Below are positions 6,137-24,447 of a stretch of DNA of 64,000 nucleotides, in pieces. The position numbers and the translations under genes are program-made. How positions within the stretch are numbered: position 1 is the stretch's first letter; each line of letters begins with the position of its first letter. Where the stretch lies: assembly GCF_000758685.1 (NCBI RefSeq), contig NZ_CP009286.1, positions 464,501 through 528,500 on the forward strand. Direction: 5' to 3'. The notes under the pieces are model-generated. The model made no database searches. It saw only the letters and a list, made by a program, of their open reading frames with translations, and was not told the DNA's origin. Source of the stretch: Paenibacillus stellifer. Lineage in GTDB: Bacteria; Bacillota; Bacilli; Paenibacillales; Paenibacillaceae.

Positions 6137-7599
6137 AGAGGGCTCGGAACGGCAGAGGGCTGCCGGCCTTCCGGCGCTCGCTGCTGTCGAAGTACATGCT
6201 GATCGTAGCGGCCGCTGTTCTGTTCCTTCCTGTCGTGTTCGGGCTTGTCGTGGCCACTTATTCCCTGTCCGACATTTTGGAGGAAAGGCGTCTGGCAGAA
6301 GAGACCTCCGGGGAGCTTGAGGTATATGCCGGGACGGCGAAGCTGGAGAAGATGTGGCATACCGAAGCCCGGGAGCTTGCCGACAAGTCTTCGGATCTGA
6401 TCACCGCCCGTCTGAGGCAGCTCGGCGGGCTGTATCCGTATGCCTTTCTGTTCTGGGCAGACGGAGCTGGAGTTACCCGGCTCTCGCTTCAGCCGGAGAA
6501 GCGGCTTGCCGGGAGCGGGGACGGCGATAGCGGAGCTTACCAGATTCCTGATTCCTGGGATGCGGCCTCGGCGATTGCCTTCATGAAACGGAGCGTAAGC
6601 CGTGATCCGCTGACGATCGTCGCCTTCATCGGAGATGACGAAGCCCGGGGTGAGGGCTTTATGGTCATGGCCGTGCCGCTGGAGGTTCTCCGGAAAAATA
6701 CCAATCCCCCTTCCAACACCCGGTATGTTGTGGTGCTGGCGCTGCTGTTTATTGTCTTCGCCTTAGTCTCGTGGCTGTTCTTTGCCCGCATCCGCAGACG
6801 TCTGCTCCGGCTGCAGACGGCGATGACCGTGGAGGGCGGCGGCTTGCCGGCGGTTGTCCCTGTGGACAAGCCGGATGAAATCGGGCTGCTTGAAGATGCC
6901 TTTAATGCCATGGTGAAGGAGCTGCAAATCAGCCAGGCCCGGGAAAAGGAGGAGGAGGAGCTCCGCAAGCGGCTGATCGCCGGGTTGTCCCACGATCTGC
7001 GGACGCCGCTTACCGTCATCCGAAGCCATCTGTTCGAGGTAGGCAAGGAGACGCTGACTCTGCAGGGCAGACAATCCATCGATTTGATGGACCGCCGGAT
7101 CGCTGACTTAAGCGGACTCATCGACAATTTGCTGGAGTACAATCTGCTGGCGAGCGGCCGGATCAAGCTGGCGCTCTCGGATAAGGATGTGCTGCGTCTG
7201 CTGCGCGAAAGCGCGGCATCCTGGTATCCGGTATGGACCCGGGAAGGGATGGAGGCCGAGATACGGCTTGAAGGAGGGCCGCTGATCTGGAGAATCGACG
7301 AATCCTGGTTCCGGCGGGTGCTGGATAATCTCTATCAGAACATTATGCGGCATGCCGGAACAGGGAGCTATGTCGGAATCTTCGCGGAAGAGCGCGGCGG
7401 TGTCCGGGCTATTGTGATCCGCGACCGGGGCCCCGGACTTGGAGAGTATTCACCGGCCGGCGGGGCCGGCATCGGCCTCGCTATCGTCGATATGCTTTTG
7501 TCCGGAATGGGGCTTGTCCGGGAGACGGAGACCGGTCCCGCAGGGACGGCCGTCTATATTTTGCCGATGCCTTCTCCCCGGGATTTAAACGAAATTTAA
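6133..7599 (+). CDS. Sensor histidine kinase
   Basis: A 488-residue membrane kinase whose ATG overlaps the regulator stop by four bases; longer upstream frames overlap the regulator and are rejected. Two membrane helices (about 20-45 and 198-218) enclose an extracytoplasmic sensor domain of about 150 residues. Then follow a HAMP-like linker, the phospho-acceptor box SHDLRTPLTVI, N box NLYQNIMRHA, the G1 motif RDRGPGLG and the G2 motif GAGIGLAI. It should phosphorylate the regulator encoded just upstream. The long sensor domain differs from BceS kinases, which nearly lack one, and is more like lantibiotic- or bacitracin-sensing LanK/BcrS types. The ligand is unknown. Confidence 0.93.
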   Translation: MKRARNGRGLPAFRRSLLSKYMLIVAAAVLFLPVVFGLVVATYSLSDILEERRLAEETSGELEVYAGTAKLEKMWHTEARELADKSSDLITARLRQLGGLYPYAFLFWADGAGVTRLSLQPEKRLAGSGDGDSGAYQIPDSWDAASAIAFMKRSVSRDPLTIVAFIGDDEARGEGFMVMAVPLEVLRKNTNPPSNTRYVVVLALLFIVFALVSWLFFARIRRRLLRLQTAMTVEGGGLPAVVPVDKPDEIGLLEDAFNAMVKELQISQAREKEEEELRKRLIAGLSHDLRTPLTVIRSHLFEVGKETLTLQGRQSIDLMDRRIADLSGLIDNLLEYNLLASGRIKLALSDKDVLRLLRESAASWYPVWTREGMEAEIRLEGGPLIWRIDESWFRRVLDNLYQNIMRHAGTGSYVGIFAEERGGVRAIVIRDRGPGLGEYSPAGGAGIGLAIVDMLLSGMGLVRETETGPAGTAVYILPMPSPRDLNEI

Positions 7600-7601
7600 A
7601 C
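7583..7601 (+). promoter_or_regulatory. Direct repeats, candidate response-regulator site
   Basis: ATTTAAAC occurs twice with an 11-base period (7583-7590 and 7594-7601), overlapping the kinase stop codon, and a degenerate ATTTAACC follows at 7617. One-turn direct repeats are the usual binding sites of OmpR-family regulators. They precede the ABC genes by about 60 bases. Confidence 0.45.
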
Positions 7602-7659
7602 TTCGAACCGCCGCTCATTTAACCTCGGAGAGGTACGCTTGATCCGAGGTGAAACGGCA

Positions 7660-8571
7660 ATGGAAACCATTATACAAACGACTGAGCTGGTGAAGGCATA
7701 CCGCGGCAGGCTCGCCGTCGACCATTTGAATTTGAGCATCGGAAAGGGAGAAATCTATGGGTTTCTCGGCCCGAACGGGGCGGGGAAGACAACGACGATC
7801 CGGATGCTGCTCGGGCTGATTGCACCGACGGAGGGACATATTGAGATCTTCGGCCGGGATTTGCGGAAAGAGCGGCTGGACATTCTGCGGAGGGTGGGCT
7901 CGCTGGTCGAGTCGCCTTCCTACTACGGCCATTTGACGGCGGAGCAAAATCTGGAGGCGATCCGCCGCATTCTCGGGACGCCGAAGCGGCGGATCGCGGA
8001 GGTGCTGGATATCGTCTCCCTGAAGGGCGAGGAGAACCGGCCGGTCAAAGGCTTCTCGCTTGGCATGAAGCAGCGGCTCGGGATCGCTTCCGCGCTGCTG
8101 AACGATCCCGAACTGCTCATTCTGGACGAGCCGACGAACGGGCTTGACCCGTCCGGCATTCAGGAGATACGAAGCCTGATCCAGTCGCTGCCCCAGCGCT
8201 ACGGCATGACTGTGCTGGTGTCAAGCCATCTGCTGAGCGAAATCGAACAGATGGCCGGAACGGTCGGGATTATCTCTCAGGGCAGTATGATTTGCCAGGA
8301 CACGATCGAGGGGCTTCGCAAGCGCTCCGCCGGTGAAATCCGGCTTCGCGTATCGGAGCCGGAGGAGGCACTGGAGGAAGCGCTGCGCCGCGGCTGGACC
8401 GGTACGCGCAGCGACAGCGAGCTGCGTCTCGCGGAACTGGATGACGGGAAAGTGGCCCTGTTGGTCAAGGCGCTAGTAGAGCGGGGACATGCTGTATACA
8501 GGGTGGAGGAATGGCGCCGCTCCTTGGAGGATTTCTTCCTTCAGATTACCGAAGGGAAGGGAACACGATGA
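7660..8571 (+). CDS. ABC transporter ATP-binding protein, BcrA/LanF type
   Basis: A 303-residue ATPase. Walker A is GPNGAGKT (about 38), the Q-loop is followed by SPSYYGHLTAEQNL, the signature is FSLGMKQRLG, Walker B LLILDEP and the H-loop SSHLL. The C-terminal about 85 residues are the extension typical of drug and bacteriocin exporters. I start at the ATG at 7660, which has GAGGTGA; a TTG seven codons earlier is possible. The stop overlaps the first permease start. With the two ABC-2-type permeases it forms an exporter like BcrAB or LanFEG that removes peptide antibiotics from the membrane; the substrate is inferred. Confidence 0.92.
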   Translation: METIIQTTELVKAYRGRLAVDHLNLSIGKGEIYGFLGPNGAGKTTTIRMLLGLIAPTEGHIEIFGRDLRKERLDILRRVGSLVESPSYYGHLTAEQNLEAIRRILGTPKRRIAEVLDIVSLKGEENRPVKGFSLGMKQRLGIASALLNDPELLILDEPTNGLDPSGIQEIRSLIQSLPQRYGMTVLVSSHLLSEIEQMAGTVGIISQGSMICQDTIEGLRKRSAGEIRLRVSEPEEALEEALRRGWTGTRSDSELRLAELDDGKVALLVKALVERGHAVYRVEEWRRSLEDFFLQITEGKGTR

Positions 8572-10606: not shown

Positions 10607-11392
10607 TTATTGGATGCTGTTGATTCCTTGACCCGCGGCTCCGGGAAGCGGAGTTCTTCTCAGGCTGAGCGCCAGCCAGACGCAGTATGCTGCGAGCAGA
10701 GCGAGAATTGCCAGGTCAATGCCCAGATAGGCGTCGCTGTTGTCGTTGCCGACGTACTGGATGAAGTTGTGAAGAAAGTGAAAAAGAATGAGCGGGAGAA
10801 TATTGCGGTTCCGGATCATGAGCAGCGCCAGCGCGCCTCCGAGGAGCAGGGCATAGACGATTTGAAGAACAGTCTGGAAGGCATCCTGCCCGGAAAGGAC
10901 GCTCAGCACATGGGTAACACCGAAGAGCACGGAAGAGGTAATGACAGCCGTACGGACGCTCTTGGGGCGGAGAATGTTCACGATGAGGCCGCGGTAAATG
11001 CTCTCTTCCACAAAGCCTACCAGCAGCGTGAAGCCGAGGTAGAACAGCACTTCGGAAGCCTCAATCTGACGGAAGCCCTTCAGGGCGATAATGACAAGCA
11101 CCGCAAGCAGCGGGAGGTAGTAGCCCCAGTCTCCCTTTGGAATCGACGACAGGGAGCGGAAGCCGTAGAAGCCCCATTTGCGCTTCAGGGTGTAGTAGAT
11201 AGCCAGAACGGCCGCAATCGGGATGTAGGAGATCAGGATGGGAGCGGAGACGCTCAGCTCTTTAATAGTCGCGTAGGCTCCCGCCATGAAGACTGCGATG
11301 AACAGCAGCGCTTCGATCAGAACGACGGCCAGCACAGGGCGCTTCTCAGTGAACGATTTAGCGGATGATTTTTTATTTGTCTGGGTTGACAT
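10607..11392 (-). CDS. CPBP-family intramembrane metalloprotease
   Basis: A 261-residue protein with about eight membrane helices. The CPBP (Abi/Rce1-like) motifs are present: EESIYRG (motif 1, EExxxR), FGVTHVL (motif 2) and HFLHNF (motif 3). Such glutamyl intramembrane proteases cleave prenylated or other membrane peptides and some give bacteriocin self-immunity. Its start overlaps the end of the PadR gene by 20 bases, so the two form an operon and the regulator probably controls the protease. The substrate is unknown. Confidence 0.88.
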   Translation of the reverse strand: MSTQTNKKSSAKSFTEKRPVLAVVLIEALLFIAVFMAGAYATIKELSVSAPILISYIPIAAVLAIYYTLKRKWGFYGFRSLSSIPKGDWGYYLPLLAVLVIIALKGFRQIEASEVLFYLGFTLLVGFVEESIYRGLIVNILRPKSVRTAVITSSVLFGVTHVLSVLSGQDAFQTVLQIVYALLLGGALALLMIRNRNILPLILFHFLHNFIQYVGNDNSDAYLGIDLAILALLAAYCVWLALSLRRTPLPGAAGQGINSIQ

Positions 11393-19728: not shown

Positions 19729-20781
19729 ATGAAGCATCCAGATGAAATTCTGTTCTATGTCGGAACCTACGGTCCCGCCGATCAGCCGTCCATCCATCTG
19801 TGCGCCTTGAACATAAAGGATGGAGAGATGAGAAGAATCGGTGGAACCGCCGGGATCGGGAATCCGTCGTACATAACCCTGGACAGCCGGCAGCAAGTGC
19901 TGTATGCCGTCAGCGAGAAGGGGAGCGGTGAAGCCGCGGCTTTTTCGGTGGACGCCGAAACCATGGAGCTTGCTCCGCTGGGCAGCCGGGCAACCGAAGG
20001 GGCAGATCCCTGCTATGTGTCGGTCAGCCAAGATGGCAAGCATGTGCTCGTCTCCAATTATTCCGGCGGCAATATCAACGCGTATCCGGTCAATCCGGAT
20101 GGTTCGCTTGGTGAGATGACCTCTAACGTCAGACATCAGGGAGCCGGAGTCCGCCCGGACCGTCAGGAGGGACCGCATCCCCATTCCATTAACCCGGAAC
20201 CGGGCAGCGAGTGGATAATGGTATGCGATCTTGGGCTGGACCGGATTATGCTGTACCGGCTGGAAGCCGGGAAGCTTGTCCTTCAGCGCGAAGTGTCTCT
20301 GCCGGAAGGAGCGGGACCGAGGCATCTGGCGTTCCATCCGGACGGAAAGCGGGTGTATTGCATCAACGAGCTGAACAACACGGTCACGGTCTTCACTTAT
20401 GACGCGGTGGCCGGTACTCTGAAAGCTCTGCAGCATGTGCCGACGCTTCCCGAGCATTATGTGCCCGGCAGCGACGATACGGCGGCTGATATCCATGTCT
20501 CTCCCTGCGGCCGCTTTCTATATGCTTCAAACCGCGGGTATGACAGCGTCGCGCTGTTCCATATCGACAGTGAGACCGGCCTGCTGACTGCTGCCGATTG
20601 GCAGATCACCGGCGGACGGACGCCGCGCAACTTCGCGATCTGCCAAGGCTGGCTGCTGGCCGCCAATCAGGGCAGTGACAACATCACCTCCTTCCGGATC
20701 GATGCCGAGAGCGGGCGTCTGATCCCGACGGGCAATGAACTCGGCATCTCTTCGCCGGTCTGCATCGCTCCGGTGAATTAG
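19729..20781 (+). CDS. Lactonase-family beta-propeller protein (YkgB / Pgl-like)
   Basis: A 350-residue cytosolic seven-bladed propeller of the 3-carboxymuconate-cyclase/6-phosphogluconolactonase group. The family blocks are visible: FYVGTYG at the start, NPSYITLD, VLVSNYSGGNINAYPV, then PHPHSINPEPG, GPRHLAFHPDGKRVYCINELNNTV, RFLYASNRGYDS and GRTPRNFAI. The likely reaction is hydrolysis of 6-phosphogluconolactone or a related lactone, but many members have other substrates. GAGGAGG lies ten bases before the ATG. The ComQ-like gene follows 136 bases downstream on the same strand. Confidence 0.85.
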   Translation: MKHPDEILFYVGTYGPADQPSIHLCALNIKDGEMRRIGGTAGIGNPSYITLDSRQQVLYAVSEKGSGEAAAFSVDAETMELAPLGSRATEGADPCYVSVSQDGKHVLVSNYSGGNINAYPVNPDGSLGEMTSNVRHQGAGVRPDRQEGPHPHSINPEPGSEWIMVCDLGLDRIMLYRLEAGKLVLQREVSLPEGAGPRHLAFHPDGKRVYCINELNNTVTVFTYDAVAGTLKALQHVPTLPEHYVPGSDDTAADIHVSPCGRFLYASNRGYDSVALFHIDSETGLLTAADWQITGGRTPRNFAICQGWLLAANQGSDNITSFRIDAESGRLIPTGNELGISSPVCIAPVN

Positions 20782-20917
20782 TGAACGGGACGCTCTGAAG
20801 AACGTATAAAAAAAATGAGCAAGCCCGCTGTCGTTTTGAAGGAATTGGTAAATAAAGATCGAATATCTAGCAATGACAGGATGGAAACGACAGAAGAAGC
20901 TCAAAAGCGAGGGCAGA

Positions 20918-21832
20918 ATGGAGCATTTTGCAGAATCCGTAGGCAGGGAAATCAGGGAAGCCGTACGGGATTATTTCCAAGTGCCGTCTTTGCAAGGTCC
21001 GGCGCTTGCCTGTGCGGAAGAGAAACTGAGAGGAGGGATGCCCTGCGGCAAGCTGACCGTGTTGCATTATCATGCTTTCGGTGGAAGCGACCCGGCTGTG
21101 TACCGGGCGGCGGCGGCGGTTGAACTGATGATTCTCGGTGCTGATATTATCGACGATCTGCAGGATCGGGACGATCAGGACTCGGCTTGGAATAGAATCC
21201 GTCCCGAAGTGGCGCTTAATATCGCCGTGGGGATGACGATTCTGTCCCAGCAGCTCCTGCTTACCGGCAGCTTCCCGCTCGAAAGGGTCCACCTGGCCGT
21301 TCAGTTCATGAACGCAAGAACCCTGGCGGCCCTGAATGGGCAAACGACCGATCTTCTGAACGAAATCCGGGACGAAGAGGATTATTTGGCCATGATACGG
21401 GAGAAGTCGGCCGGATTTGTCGTGGCGGCTTGCATGATCGGTACGGTGCTGGCAACGGGAGAGGTCAAGGAAGAGGTAGCCGAATATGCCGAGGAACTGG
21501 GCATGGCCGAGCAGATCAAGAATGATGCCAACGATTTGCTGAACCGGCAAAAAGGCGACCTGTTAAGCCGCAAGCGGACGCTGTCCACCCTGTTCTTGCT
21601 GCAGTATTTGCCGGAGAACAGCCGCTGGATCGCAGACTATTTTGACGGAATGCTGGAGCCGGAAGAAATGATTGGCCGCATGGATGAGTTTGAACGGGTA
21701 TTGGAGGAGACAGGGGCTTATCTGTATACCTCGGTCATGATCCGAACCCGGAGCTACCGTTTTGTGGAACTGGTTAACAAGCTGGACATTGACGCTTACT
21801 GGAAAAACCGTATTCTCGCTCTGGCCGAATAG
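20918..21832 (+). CDS. ComQ-like isoprenyl transferase (polyprenyl synthetase fold)
   Basis: A 304-residue all-helical protein, the length of ComQ and shorter than typical housekeeping prenyl synthases. The first Asp-rich motif reads DIIDDLQDRDD (residues about 74-84). The second is the degenerate KNDANDLLNRQKGDLLSRKRTL typical of ComQ, not the DDxxD of chain-elongating synthases. I start at the ATG at 20918 (GCGAGGG four bases upstream); an ATG 15 codons earlier lacks a site. ComQ attaches an isoprenyl group to a Trp of the ComX pheromone and helps its export. The next gene, 34 bases downstream, encodes a ComX-like peptide, which strongly supports the call. Confidence 0.83.
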   Translation: MEHFAESVGREIREAVRDYFQVPSLQGPALACAEEKLRGGMPCGKLTVLHYHAFGGSDPAVYRAAAAVELMILGADIIDDLQDRDDQDSAWNRIRPEVALNIAVGMTILSQQLLLTGSFPLERVHLAVQFMNARTLAALNGQTTDLLNEIRDEEDYLAMIREKSAGFVVAACMIGTVLATGEVKEEVAEYAEELGMAEQIKNDANDLLNRQKGDLLSRKRTLSTLFLLQYLPENSRWIADYFDGMLEPEEMIGRMDEFERVLEETGAYLYTSVMIRTRSYRFVELVNKLDIDAYWKNRILALAE

Positions 21833-21866
21833 ACCGGGCGCAACTAATCGATTGGGGGAATTTATC

Positions 21867-22073
21867 ATGTTAAAAGAACTGATCCATAGCTTAATGAAGG
21901 ATTCTGCCGCAGCCCATCGTGTTAAGAACGGCCAGTTGGAGATTGCCGGAATCAGTGAAATCGAACGGAGAGCGCTGACCGATGCGCTCGCAGCCGACCG
22001 CGGAGTCATGAAGGCTGAAGAACTGGGAGTCTGGAACTCCGTTGCAGAATCGTCTGCCATCAAAGCGCTGTAA
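21867..22073 (+). CDS. ComX-like pheromone precursor
   Basis: A 68-residue peptide with a good GGGGGA site seven bases before the ATG. Its first 30 residues fit the ComX leader pattern (hydrophobic start LKELIHSLMKDS, then VKNGQLEIAGIS, compare the LMKNPxVLxKLENGEASLIGI type of Bacillus ComX). The C-terminal half has a single Trp at position 56 (ELGVWNSVA), the expected prenylation site. Trp lies 12 residues from the end, further than in Bacillus ComX. It directly follows the ComQ-like gene; no ComP kinase or ComA regulator follows. A terminator lies 25 bases after the stop. The alternative is an unrelated small protein. Confidence 0.65.
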   Translation: MLKELIHSLMKDSAAAHRVKNGQLEIAGISEIERRALTDALAADRGVMKAEELGVWNSVAESSAIKAL

Positions 22074-22098
22074 TTCATCTTTCATATAAAAGAAGCCG

Positions 22099-22136
22099 AA
22101 CAGCCCTGACCCGGAATGTCCCGGATCAGGGCTGTT
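22099..22136. terminator. Bidirectional terminator between comX-like and hydrolase genes
   Basis: AACAGCCCTGA and TCAGGGCTGTT form the outer stem with an inner CCGG/CCGG pair. It serves both convergent genes; the minus-strand side is followed by T-rich sequence. Confidence 0.75.
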
Positions 22137-22143
22137 CATGCTT

Positions 22144-24447
22144 CTAAAGGACGCTGAATGGCGTTGATCCCTGGCTGCCGTAAAAGCCGATATCATCAAG
22201 CATAACGGCATCGCCCTTCTGCCCCAGGTAGAACGTGACGGATTTCAGATGTGCCGGGTCGAAGGCGGCGTTCTTCTGCCGGAAGAGCGCGACCGGAATC
22301 CGGTAGGTTTGAAACACGGCTTCGGTGGAGTTGGCGAATTTGCCGCCTGCGACCTGCTTCTCCAGCCATGCGGTGCGAGTAAACCGGGTTTGGGGGAGAG
22401 GCAGCGGCGTCATGACCGACGACAGTGACACCCGGGAGGCGGCGCCGGCGGTATCGGTAAGCTCAACATCAATTTCCGGAGCGCCGGAGTCAGACGTTCC
22501 CTGCAAATTGGACATGGAGAAGGATAAGCCTTCCGCTCCCGACAGCACCTGATCCATAACAGGCCCCGATTGAAGCGAAAGACGGTAATATCCCTCCGAT
22601 TTGAAATCCGGGTCCGTGACCTCCAGCCGAACACCGTAGGTGTCTTTGCTTCCGCCCTCCCGGTTCTTGACGGTCTCCTCACTAAGGCGAAGCCCGGCGT
22701 AAGCTGCCGAGGCCCCAAGGCTGGCCGTACCGGAATCCCGGTCTTCGTCAAAGCCGGCAATCAAGGCCAGCGTGCCGTCCTCGTAGCGGTTGAAATAGGA
22801 CGTCCCGGCGGGAAGCCATGCCAGTCCGCTGCGGTAATCCTGAAATAGTCCGGCATAGGCTCGGTTGCCGTGCAGCGATGTCTCCAGGAAGGCGGAGACA
22901 TATACCTTGGCGATCCGCCGCTGCTCTTCGCCTTCCATAATATCGCTCCGGTTTAGAAACAGGCCGGCGGGCGGTGACAGATCATACAGGCCCCAACTGG
23001 TATTGAACTGGCTGTGGTTCGCCCCGCCGATATACAGCGACGACTTGAAAGCGGAGCTGCCTTGCAAGTAGAAGGTCCGGATATATTGCCGGTCACCATC
23101 GAAATTATGGACGTCTCCGTCATGGGCACCCTGCAGCGTCAAATAGCTGATATCTTGCAGCTCGGCCTTCTCTCCGTCCACCGTCTGGTCGGTCGGGGCC
23201 AGAGCGGCTATGGCCGAGATCCGGTAACGCTCCGATGAGAGCAGCACGGGATCGGCACTAAACCAGCGCCCGGCATCGGCTGCCATAGCCGCAGCCTGGC
23301 CGCCCCGGCTGTGCCCGATCAGAGCGGTCCGGGAATAATCAATCTTGCCGAAGAACGGATTGCCCGGCGTATCGCTATACTCCGCAAGCTGCTCCAGATG
23401 CTTCAGGATGATCCAGGCCCGGAGCTTGTAGTCATTGTCCGGAATGTCCGACCAGGCGGAATAATTCAGGAAATTCTCGTCCAGCGATACGGCAATGAAG
23501 CCGCGGCTTGCCAGAAGCTCTCCGAGATAGGCGTACCCGGTGTCGGAGAAATCCTCCATGCTGTGATTGCCGTGGACGATGAGCACAAGAGGAAATGGCC
23601 CTTCGCCTTCCGGCATCCAGACTCTTCCGTTCAGCGGCAGCGCATCCGGGCCGAACCCCCAGAACCAGGTGCGCAGCCGCGTCCATCCGCTCGTGTAGGA
23701 AGAGGCGTCAGCCGGCTCCGAGATCAGCTCTGCCTGCGCGCCAAATTCGGGCCGGTGCCGGTCGGACCCGCTGCCATAGGTGAAACTGCGGTAAGCGTAC
23801 GCTCCGGGCAATCCGGGGTTGGGCGCCGTCAGCGGGGCCACGGTGCCGGCGGCTGCGATGCCGCCCGCATCGTCTCTGTCATCCGCGCCGGATTCCGCAG
23901 GGAAACCGGCCTGAAAGGCCGGCCCTCCGGGAATCAGGAGGAGGGCGCCGGCAAGCGCGGCCAGGAGCGCCAGGCCCGGCAGCCGCCGTCCTATGCGGAT
24001 GAGGCCGCAGGCCCAGCCGCCGATTGCGGCTGCAGCCCCTGCGGCGGCTGCGGCTGCGCAGGCGGCGGGGAGCGCGATATCCGAGCTGAGCAGGATAACG
24101 AGAACGGCGCCGGCGCTGGCCAGCACGCAGGCGGTGAACAGGCGGGGAAGCCGCAGGCCCAGCAGCGACAGAAGCGCGGCGGCGGGATAGCCGGCGGCCG
24201 CCAGCAGGGTCGCGGCCGCCGCAGCCGCGAGCATCAGGTCGAAGGGCCTGCCGAAGCCTGTCGGCACGCCGAGGAGAACGGCGGTGAACGCGGCGAAGCC
24301 GATCAGCCAGGGGCCCAGCAGGGCTCCCCGCCATAAGGGCGTATCATAGTGCGCCGTGTCCCGGAGCCGGTGCGCCAGCCATTGTGCTGCGCGTCTGTGC
24401 CGCCGCCTCTTCGGCGGCGAAGGCGGCAGCCTGAGTTCTATATTCAT
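22144..24447 (-). CDS. Large membrane-anchored alpha/beta hydrolase
   Basis: A 767-residue protein. Residues 1-30 are basic, 40 to about 185 contain about five Ala/Leu-rich membrane helices, then a linker leads to an alpha/beta hydrolase domain (about 265-545): oxyanion strand LVLIVHGNHS, nucleophile elbow GHSRGGQAAA, acid after IAALAPTDQ, and His in GGANHSQFN. A C-terminal beta-rich domain of about 200 residues follows (FSMSNLQGTSDSG, then FYLGQKGDAVMLDDIGFYG), perhaps a galactose-binding-like module. This combination is found in Paenibacillaceae proteins of unknown function; an extracellular esterase or lipase role is inferred. GGAAGAG precedes the ATG. Confidence 0.75.
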   Translation of the reverse strand: MNIELRLPPSPPKRRRHRRAAQWLAHRLRDTAHYDTPLWRGALLGPWLIGFAAFTAVLLGVPTGFGRPFDLMLAAAAAATLLAAAGYPAAALLSLLGLRLPRLFTACVLASAGAVLVILLSSDIALPAACAAAAAAGAAAAIGGWACGLIRIGRRLPGLALLAALAGALLLIPGGPAFQAGFPAESGADDRDDAGGIAAAGTVAPLTAPNPGLPGAYAYRSFTYGSGSDRHRPEFGAQAELISEPADASSYTSGWTRLRTWFWGFGPDALPLNGRVWMPEGEGPFPLVLIVHGNHSMEDFSDTGYAYLGELLASRGFIAVSLDENFLNYSAWSDIPDNDYKLRAWIILKHLEQLAEYSDTPGNPFFGKIDYSRTALIGHSRGGQAAAMAADAGRWFSADPVLLSSERYRISAIAALAPTDQTVDGEKAELQDISYLTLQGAHDGDVHNFDGDRQYIRTFYLQGSSAFKSSLYIGGANHSQFNTSWGLYDLSPPAGLFLNRSDIMEGEEQRRIAKVYVSAFLETSLHGNRAYAGLFQDYRSGLAWLPAGTSYFNRYEDGTLALIAGFDEDRDSGTASLGASAAYAGLRLSEETVKNREGGSKDTYGVRLEVTDPDFKSEGYYRLSLQSGPVMDQVLSGAEGLSFSMSNLQGTSDSGAPEIDVELTDTAGAASRVSLSSVMTPLPLPQTRFTRTAWLEKQVAGGKFANSTEAVFQTYRIPVALFRQKNAAFDPAHLKSVTFYLGQKGDAVMLDDIGFYGSQGSTPFSVL

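Follow-up and report, generated by a model that had tools for sequence, protein, structure and literature searches.

A conserved comQX pair without neighbouring comP and comA genes in Paenibacillus

The stretch of 64,000 nucleotides analyzed here, referred to as the window (G000:C1:464501-528500), comes from a Paenibacillus genome of 5.66 Mb assembled as one contig. On its plus strand lie a comQ gene (20918–21832) and, 34 nt further on, a comX gene (21867–22073). The comQ product, a predicted Trp prenyltransferase of 304 residues, matches PF00348 with 61 bits (cut-off 27) and is 94% identical to ComQ of P. sinensis HN-1. A ribosome-binding site for comX, GGGGGAA (21854–21860, plus strand), was read in the sequence and is conserved in an alignment of the nine loci of this type described below. 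The comX gene encodes a 68-residue precursor with a single Trp, residue 56 (22032–22034), followed by a C-terminal extension of 12 residues. PF05952 recognizes residues 1–43 of the precursor with 31.3 bits (cut-off 25), so that the extension is outside the matched part; no NCBIfam model matched it at an E value of 1 or better. Residues 53–59, LGVWNSV (22023–22043, plus strand), are proposed to form part of the mature peptide. The sequence and the two Pfam searches bear out the first-pass annotation in its pairing of a ComQ-like enzyme with a ComX-like small peptide, its coordinates, and its 34-nt gap.

The pair is flanked upstream by a gene for a lactonase-family protein (19729–20781, plus strand; PF10282, 369 bits) and downstream, on the minus strand, by a gene for a hydrolase-like protein of 767 residues (22144–24447; PF07224, 27.2 bits with a cut-off of 26). 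The comX and hydrolase genes converge on a strong hairpin (22091–22145, assigned to neither strand; −39.3 kcal/mol, z −8.2), probably a shared terminator. The terminator that the earlier annotation had placed immediately after comX is present as a hairpin, which on the plus strand lacks a long T run on its 3′ side. By eye, inverted repeats between the lactonase and hydrolase genes were also found in relatives that have no comQX there, and the terminator may therefore predate the insertion of the pair.

Recognition of a ComQ relies, according to PMC5331326, on an intact first Asp-rich motif together with an NDxxx or GDxxx pseudo-SARM, and PMC13290415 adds a Gln just upstream of the pseudo-SARM. 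The first motif of the window protein, DDLQDRDD, is intact, and its second, QIKNDAND, has NDxxx with the upstream Gln and not DDxxD. The pattern Q(I/M)(K/R)ND is found in all 37 ComQs longer than 280 residues, and QxxDD in three housekeeping synthases of the window genome. In a tree built with 13 of these 37 ComQs, none of them from Bacillus, the ComQs were split with support of 100/99 from the other PF00348 proteins in the window genome, which number three. The first-pass annotation had named clustering with housekeeping synthases as a refuting outcome; the tree did not give it, and the reading as a housekeeping prenyl synthase is rejected. A second, divergent ComQ-like protein in the same tree sits on a very long branch and its placement is unsure.

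To put the pair in context, ComX loci were collected with PF05952, which found 105 in 103 of 394 genomes of a Paenibacillaceae sample. ComP adjoins ComX at 96 of the 105 loci and is absent at nine, a linkage count that covers Paenibacillaceae and not Bacillus. The numbers of loci are lower bounds, because the same search was positive in none of 14 control genomes, among them B. subtilis, where comX is expected. The genus sample contributed 39 loci in 37 of 100 genomes, the window genome included, and the surroundings of all 39 were inspected. Nine, namely the window and loci in G046, G013, G024, G033, G107, G108, G119, and G130, have neither ComP nor ComA in the inspected stretch; these are called orphans here. 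The remaining 30 have ComP and ComA downstream, as fragments only in G038. Outside the genus, ComP adjoins ComX at 66 of 66 loci, nine of which lie in stretches that ended before ComA. An independent search with ComQ was positive in 36 of 100 genomes, the identical genus set except for G038, where ComQ is a fragment. The orphans also form a sequence class: a profile of their positions 1–65 matches the nine alone (127–141 bits), the next best hit reaching 63 bits over the leader. In all nine the small frame lies beside comQ with its Trp at residue 56, which answers the earlier call for a check of gene order and Trp conservation and does not bear out the second refuting outcome named there, a small frame not conserved beside comQ-like genes in relatives. 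We take G046 to be P. sinensis HN-1, G108 to be P. durus, and G130 to be Paenibacillus sp. URB8-2. A P. forsythiae peptide is identical to the ComX of G024, and NCBI annotates peptides of this type as competence pheromone ComX. No earlier report of orphan comQX in Paenibacillus was recognized among the matches listed, which consisted of titles and abstract beginnings, with subscription journals mostly outside.

The first-pass annotation had stated that neither ComP nor ComA accompanies the pair, and indeed there is no comP or comA within 10 kb of the window comX. Genome-wide, ComP and ComA orthologues were undetected in eight of the nine orphan genomes (one of them, G024, is a 900-contig draft that is 91% complete); the same search found them in the positive controls G012 and G029 and in G046, which has a complete comQXPA on another contig. 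No second ComX was found in the window genome, where PF05952 matches only once, and the genome holds only weak kinase and regulator matches, the best pair (G000:C1:1277955-1279276) being 33% and 43% identical to ComP and ComA.

All nine orphan pairs are located between the same lactonase gene and opposing hydrolase gene. In 74 genomes of the genus the hydrolase is present and the orphan pair is absent; 16 of these were inspected, and in every one the lactonase faces the hydrolase with no ComQ match between them. The gap between the lactonase and hydrolase matches at this site is 98–418 bp in 15 of them and 1.8 kb in one. With one shared site, free of comQX in 16 of 16 relatives, it appears that comQX arrived there by itself, and no mobile carrier is visible at the insertion site. 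A tree of the ComQs from the 39 genus loci, of which 37 were used (the 115-residue piece at L028 and the 274-residue protein at L074 were dropped), places the nine orphans in one clade with support of 100/100. With midpoint rooting this clade is nested among ComQs of comQXPA loci (92/92, a value below the tool's star). Loss of comP and comA is the simpler direction, because 96 of the 105 ComX loci keep ComP. We read the orphan comQX as a sender cassette of single origin, and would suppose that comQX alone moved from a complete comQXPA locus to the new site.

Several loci in the same survey depart from the usual arrangement in other ways. The L028 locus (G038:C1:6761800-6781700) is a degraded com locus with fragments of comQ, comP, and comA and an insertion-sequence-like ORF inside comP, and at L074 (G116:C67), also degraded, comQ is matched in two pieces. 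Four loci of genus g31 (L137, L146, L148, and L164) have comX, comP, and comA in order, and the roughly 1.3 kb covered upstream gave no match to ComQ. The place of comQ is taken at the g31 loci by an ORF longer than 320 codons, which had no Pfam match in L137, the one tested; possibly the g31 ComX is modified by another enzyme.

Is the orphan pair still in use? Between the window and P. sinensis, dN/dS of comQ is 0.12, and comX has dN 0.033 and dS 0.214. When the orphan loci are compared with one another (36 pairs), dN/dS of comQ ranges from 0.09 to 0.28. Judged by these substitution rates, comQ and comX are under purifying selection. Complete loci show equal purifying selection, so the ratios support maintenance of the pair and not a special role. 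The view that the pair is a decaying, functionless relic of comQXPA draws on the disappearance of ComP and ComA and on the existence of a broken comQXPA in G038. It is hard to credit when both frames are intact in nine of nine orphans, the comQ ratios are this low, and the start, the gap, and an upstream element are all conserved, and we consider it very improbable.

The upstream element resembles a sigma-H promoter, by a consensus with 11-nt spacing that we presume to be that of sigma-H. In the window it spans 20838–20864 on the plus strand and consists of GAAGGAATT (20838–20846), 11 nt, and ATCGAAT (20858–20864). All nine orphan loci have a sigma-H-like element, located −79 to −83 from comQ, and the clearest conserved blocks upstream of comQ in the nine are GAAGGA...TGG and CGAATA. 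The window agrees at 13 of 13 positions, a score reached by none of 200 randomized sequences, and the other eight at 11–13; the weakest match, in G024, is equaled by 21.5% of randomized sequences. The case for a putative promoter is therefore one of recurrence at one place and not of individual scores. The element also scores 13/13 in six of the 29 complete loci scanned (G012, G018, G053, G054, G056, and G132), and so it probably came with comQ.

What sets the orphan peptides apart is the region around and after the Trp. Of the 30 other genus loci, 15 likewise have their Trp at position 56, more than at any other position, so what distinguishes the orphans from canonical ComX is 9 or 12 extra residues after it: 12 residues follow in the window and nine in seven relatives, against 1–3 at the other 96 loci (30 in the genus and 66 outside). 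For B. subtilis ComX, PMC4008528 places the Trp 5 to 10 residues from the C-terminus, and the 12 residues of the window peptide lie outside that range. The first-pass annotation was correct about these 12 residues; its view that the arrangement is unlike Bacillus ComX holds less well, since the Trp of B. subtilis subsp. natto ComX is described as 20th from the end, farnesylated internally, with the part after it removed (PMC5331326). Prenylation of Trp56 is still not assured, because the ComQ of RO-E-2 reportedly required the Trp at position 2–4 from the C-terminal end in vitro (same source) and the related enzyme PalQ tolerated no residue after it (PMC13290415).

Within this region L53, G54, W56, and V59 are invariant in the nine orphans, with A or V, D or N, and S or T between them, giving the core LG[AV]W[DN][ST]V. 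The invariant residues recur in P0001 and P0002, the latter a metagenome relative that keeps LGVWNSV and differs at the far end. For the seven residues before the Trp, agreement among pairs with ComQ identity of 0.60–0.65 is 0.61 in orphans (11 pairs) and 0.31 in complete loci (40 pairs), and with ComQ identity of 0.65–0.70 it is 0.52 (three pairs) and 0.28 (39 pairs). The gap shrinks at higher ComQ identity (orphan versus complete, 0.57/0.47, 0.68/0.60, and 0.92/0.89). This conservation is only suggestive, because in most bins the orphan leader too is more conserved than the complete-locus leader, and few lineages supply the orphan pairs.

The same seven residues bear on whether the peptide is aimed at other species, activating or jamming the ComP of neighbours that have comQXPA while the producer itself is deaf. 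Producers that lost the receptor and kept the sender and its promoter would fit such a role, as would the frequency of comQXPA in the genus (30 of 39 loci). The orphan residues, however, hardly resemble those of 28 complete-locus ComX peptides: agreement in mixed pairs is 0.00–0.05 by bin, compared with 0.14–0.31 for canonical pairs over the same range of ComQ identity. Mimicry of known pherotypes is weakened by this near-zero similarity, G046 possesses both systems, and we regard a target in other species as unlikely.

A prenylated ribosomal peptide with a role other than signaling, for example a membrane- or surface-active one, was also considered. PalQ, a related Trp prenyltransferase, modifies a Paenibacillus RiPP (PMC10853753), and antimicrobial peptides prenylated by PalQ are described as gaining activity (PMC13290415); no receptor gene accompanies the orphan pair. 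Against this, the precursor is a PF05952 ComX, and no transporter, immunity, or protease gene adjoins the pair, whose lactonase and hydrolase neighbours are the same at the site free of comQX. Such a product seems to us improbable.

If the peptide is a signal, what receives it? One candidate is a diverged ComP-like kinase such as that of the weak pair at G000:C1:1277955-1279276. This locus (L077, G000:C1:1271000-1286000, positions 6242–8289) contains a HisKA_3 kinase of 467 residues and a ComA-like regulator beside NRPS/PKS-like genes, with no ComX or ComQ match nearby. The two proteins score 119 bits to ComP and 169 bits to ComA, and their domains were confirmed. But the kinase is short, without a long sensor region, and among the remaining orphan genomes seven have no comparable match, the eighth, G046, having true ComP and ComA. 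For a divergent ComP in G013, the other eight genomes gave kinase-domain matches only, apart from a weak match to the true ComP of G046. A rewired ComP common to all nine was rejected, as no kinase with a ComP-like score or sensor region was found, and a diverged kinase of this type as the receptor appears a very slim prospect. The G013 protein belongs to a divergent com-like locus of its own (L078, G013:C4:24000-40000, positions 10911–6771, minus strand) whose genes run X-Q-P-A, next to PKS/NRPS-like and MFS genes. It comprises a 60-codon ORF ending in NAEMWV, seen by eye and not reported by PF05952, a ComQ-like protein with DDCMD and QISNDARD, a 785-residue HisKA_3 kinase, and a LuxR-type regulator.

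The explanation that we favor, with a probability of roughly 0.55, is that comQX without comP and comA is a stand-alone sender, whose extended ComX is prenylated, trimmed, and read by a receptor other than ComP; since no receptor gene lies beside the pair, the peptide likely acts via another one. In this scheme sigma-H would switch comQX on at the end of growth, and ComQ would attach a geranyl or farnesyl group to Trp56. Proteases would then trim both ends, with loss of the extension, for which natto ComX is the reported precedent, and the released product would be a peptide around LG[AV]W[DN][ST]V, sensed in the producer or its kin by a receptor that is not a recognizable ComP. The first-pass annotation had spoken of a diverged or rewired prenyl-peptide signal; the conserved orphan pair is in keeping with that, and the receptor was not found in the genome searches. 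We put forward more tentatively the larger proposal that in the P. durus group the ComX signal was freed from ComP, the cassette having moved and gained its extension, with a core fixed across species, and is sensed by receptors of a new class that recognize Trp-prenylated peptides. P. durus is described as a nitrogen fixer, and the pair could conceivably play a part in communities of soil or roots, although this is speculative.

In ComQXPA, a textbook case, pheromone and receptor change together. In the orphan comQX the sender has been kept, moved, and conserved, and the receptor is gone. The orphan pairs share protein families, gene order, and ComQ motifs with the ComQXPA systems of Bacillus and other Bacillota (census in PMC4008528), among whose ComQs they nest. 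They differ in having no adjacent comP or comA (nor any detected elsewhere in eight of nine genomes, 43% being the best ComA identity in the window genome), in their new chromosomal site, in a comQ–comX gap of 34 nt (eight loci, the window included) or 36 nt (one locus) and not the 119–230 nt of the 30 other genus loci, in the 9 or 12 residues after the Trp, and in a core conserved across species. Natto ComX is alike in its internal Trp with a C-terminal extension, which is removed, but it belongs to a complete comQXPA, and its Trp is 20th from the end compared with 10th or 13th in the orphans (PMC5331326). PalPXQ of Paenibacillus alvei (PMC10853753) likewise combines a Trp prenyltransferase of the isoprenoid synthase superfamily with its own precursor peptide; PalX, however, has an NHLP leader and ends in Trp, and the kinase PalP is linked to it, whereas the orphan pair has a ComX leader, an internal Trp, and no linked kinase. 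If our reading is true, two questions can be tested: are there ComX receptors besides ComP, and how does ComQ deal with a Trp that is internal to a longer precursor? P. sinensis (G046), which carries, besides the orphan comQX, a complete comQXPA whose ComQ belongs to another subgroup (L026/L024 and L029), offers a natural comparison within one cell.
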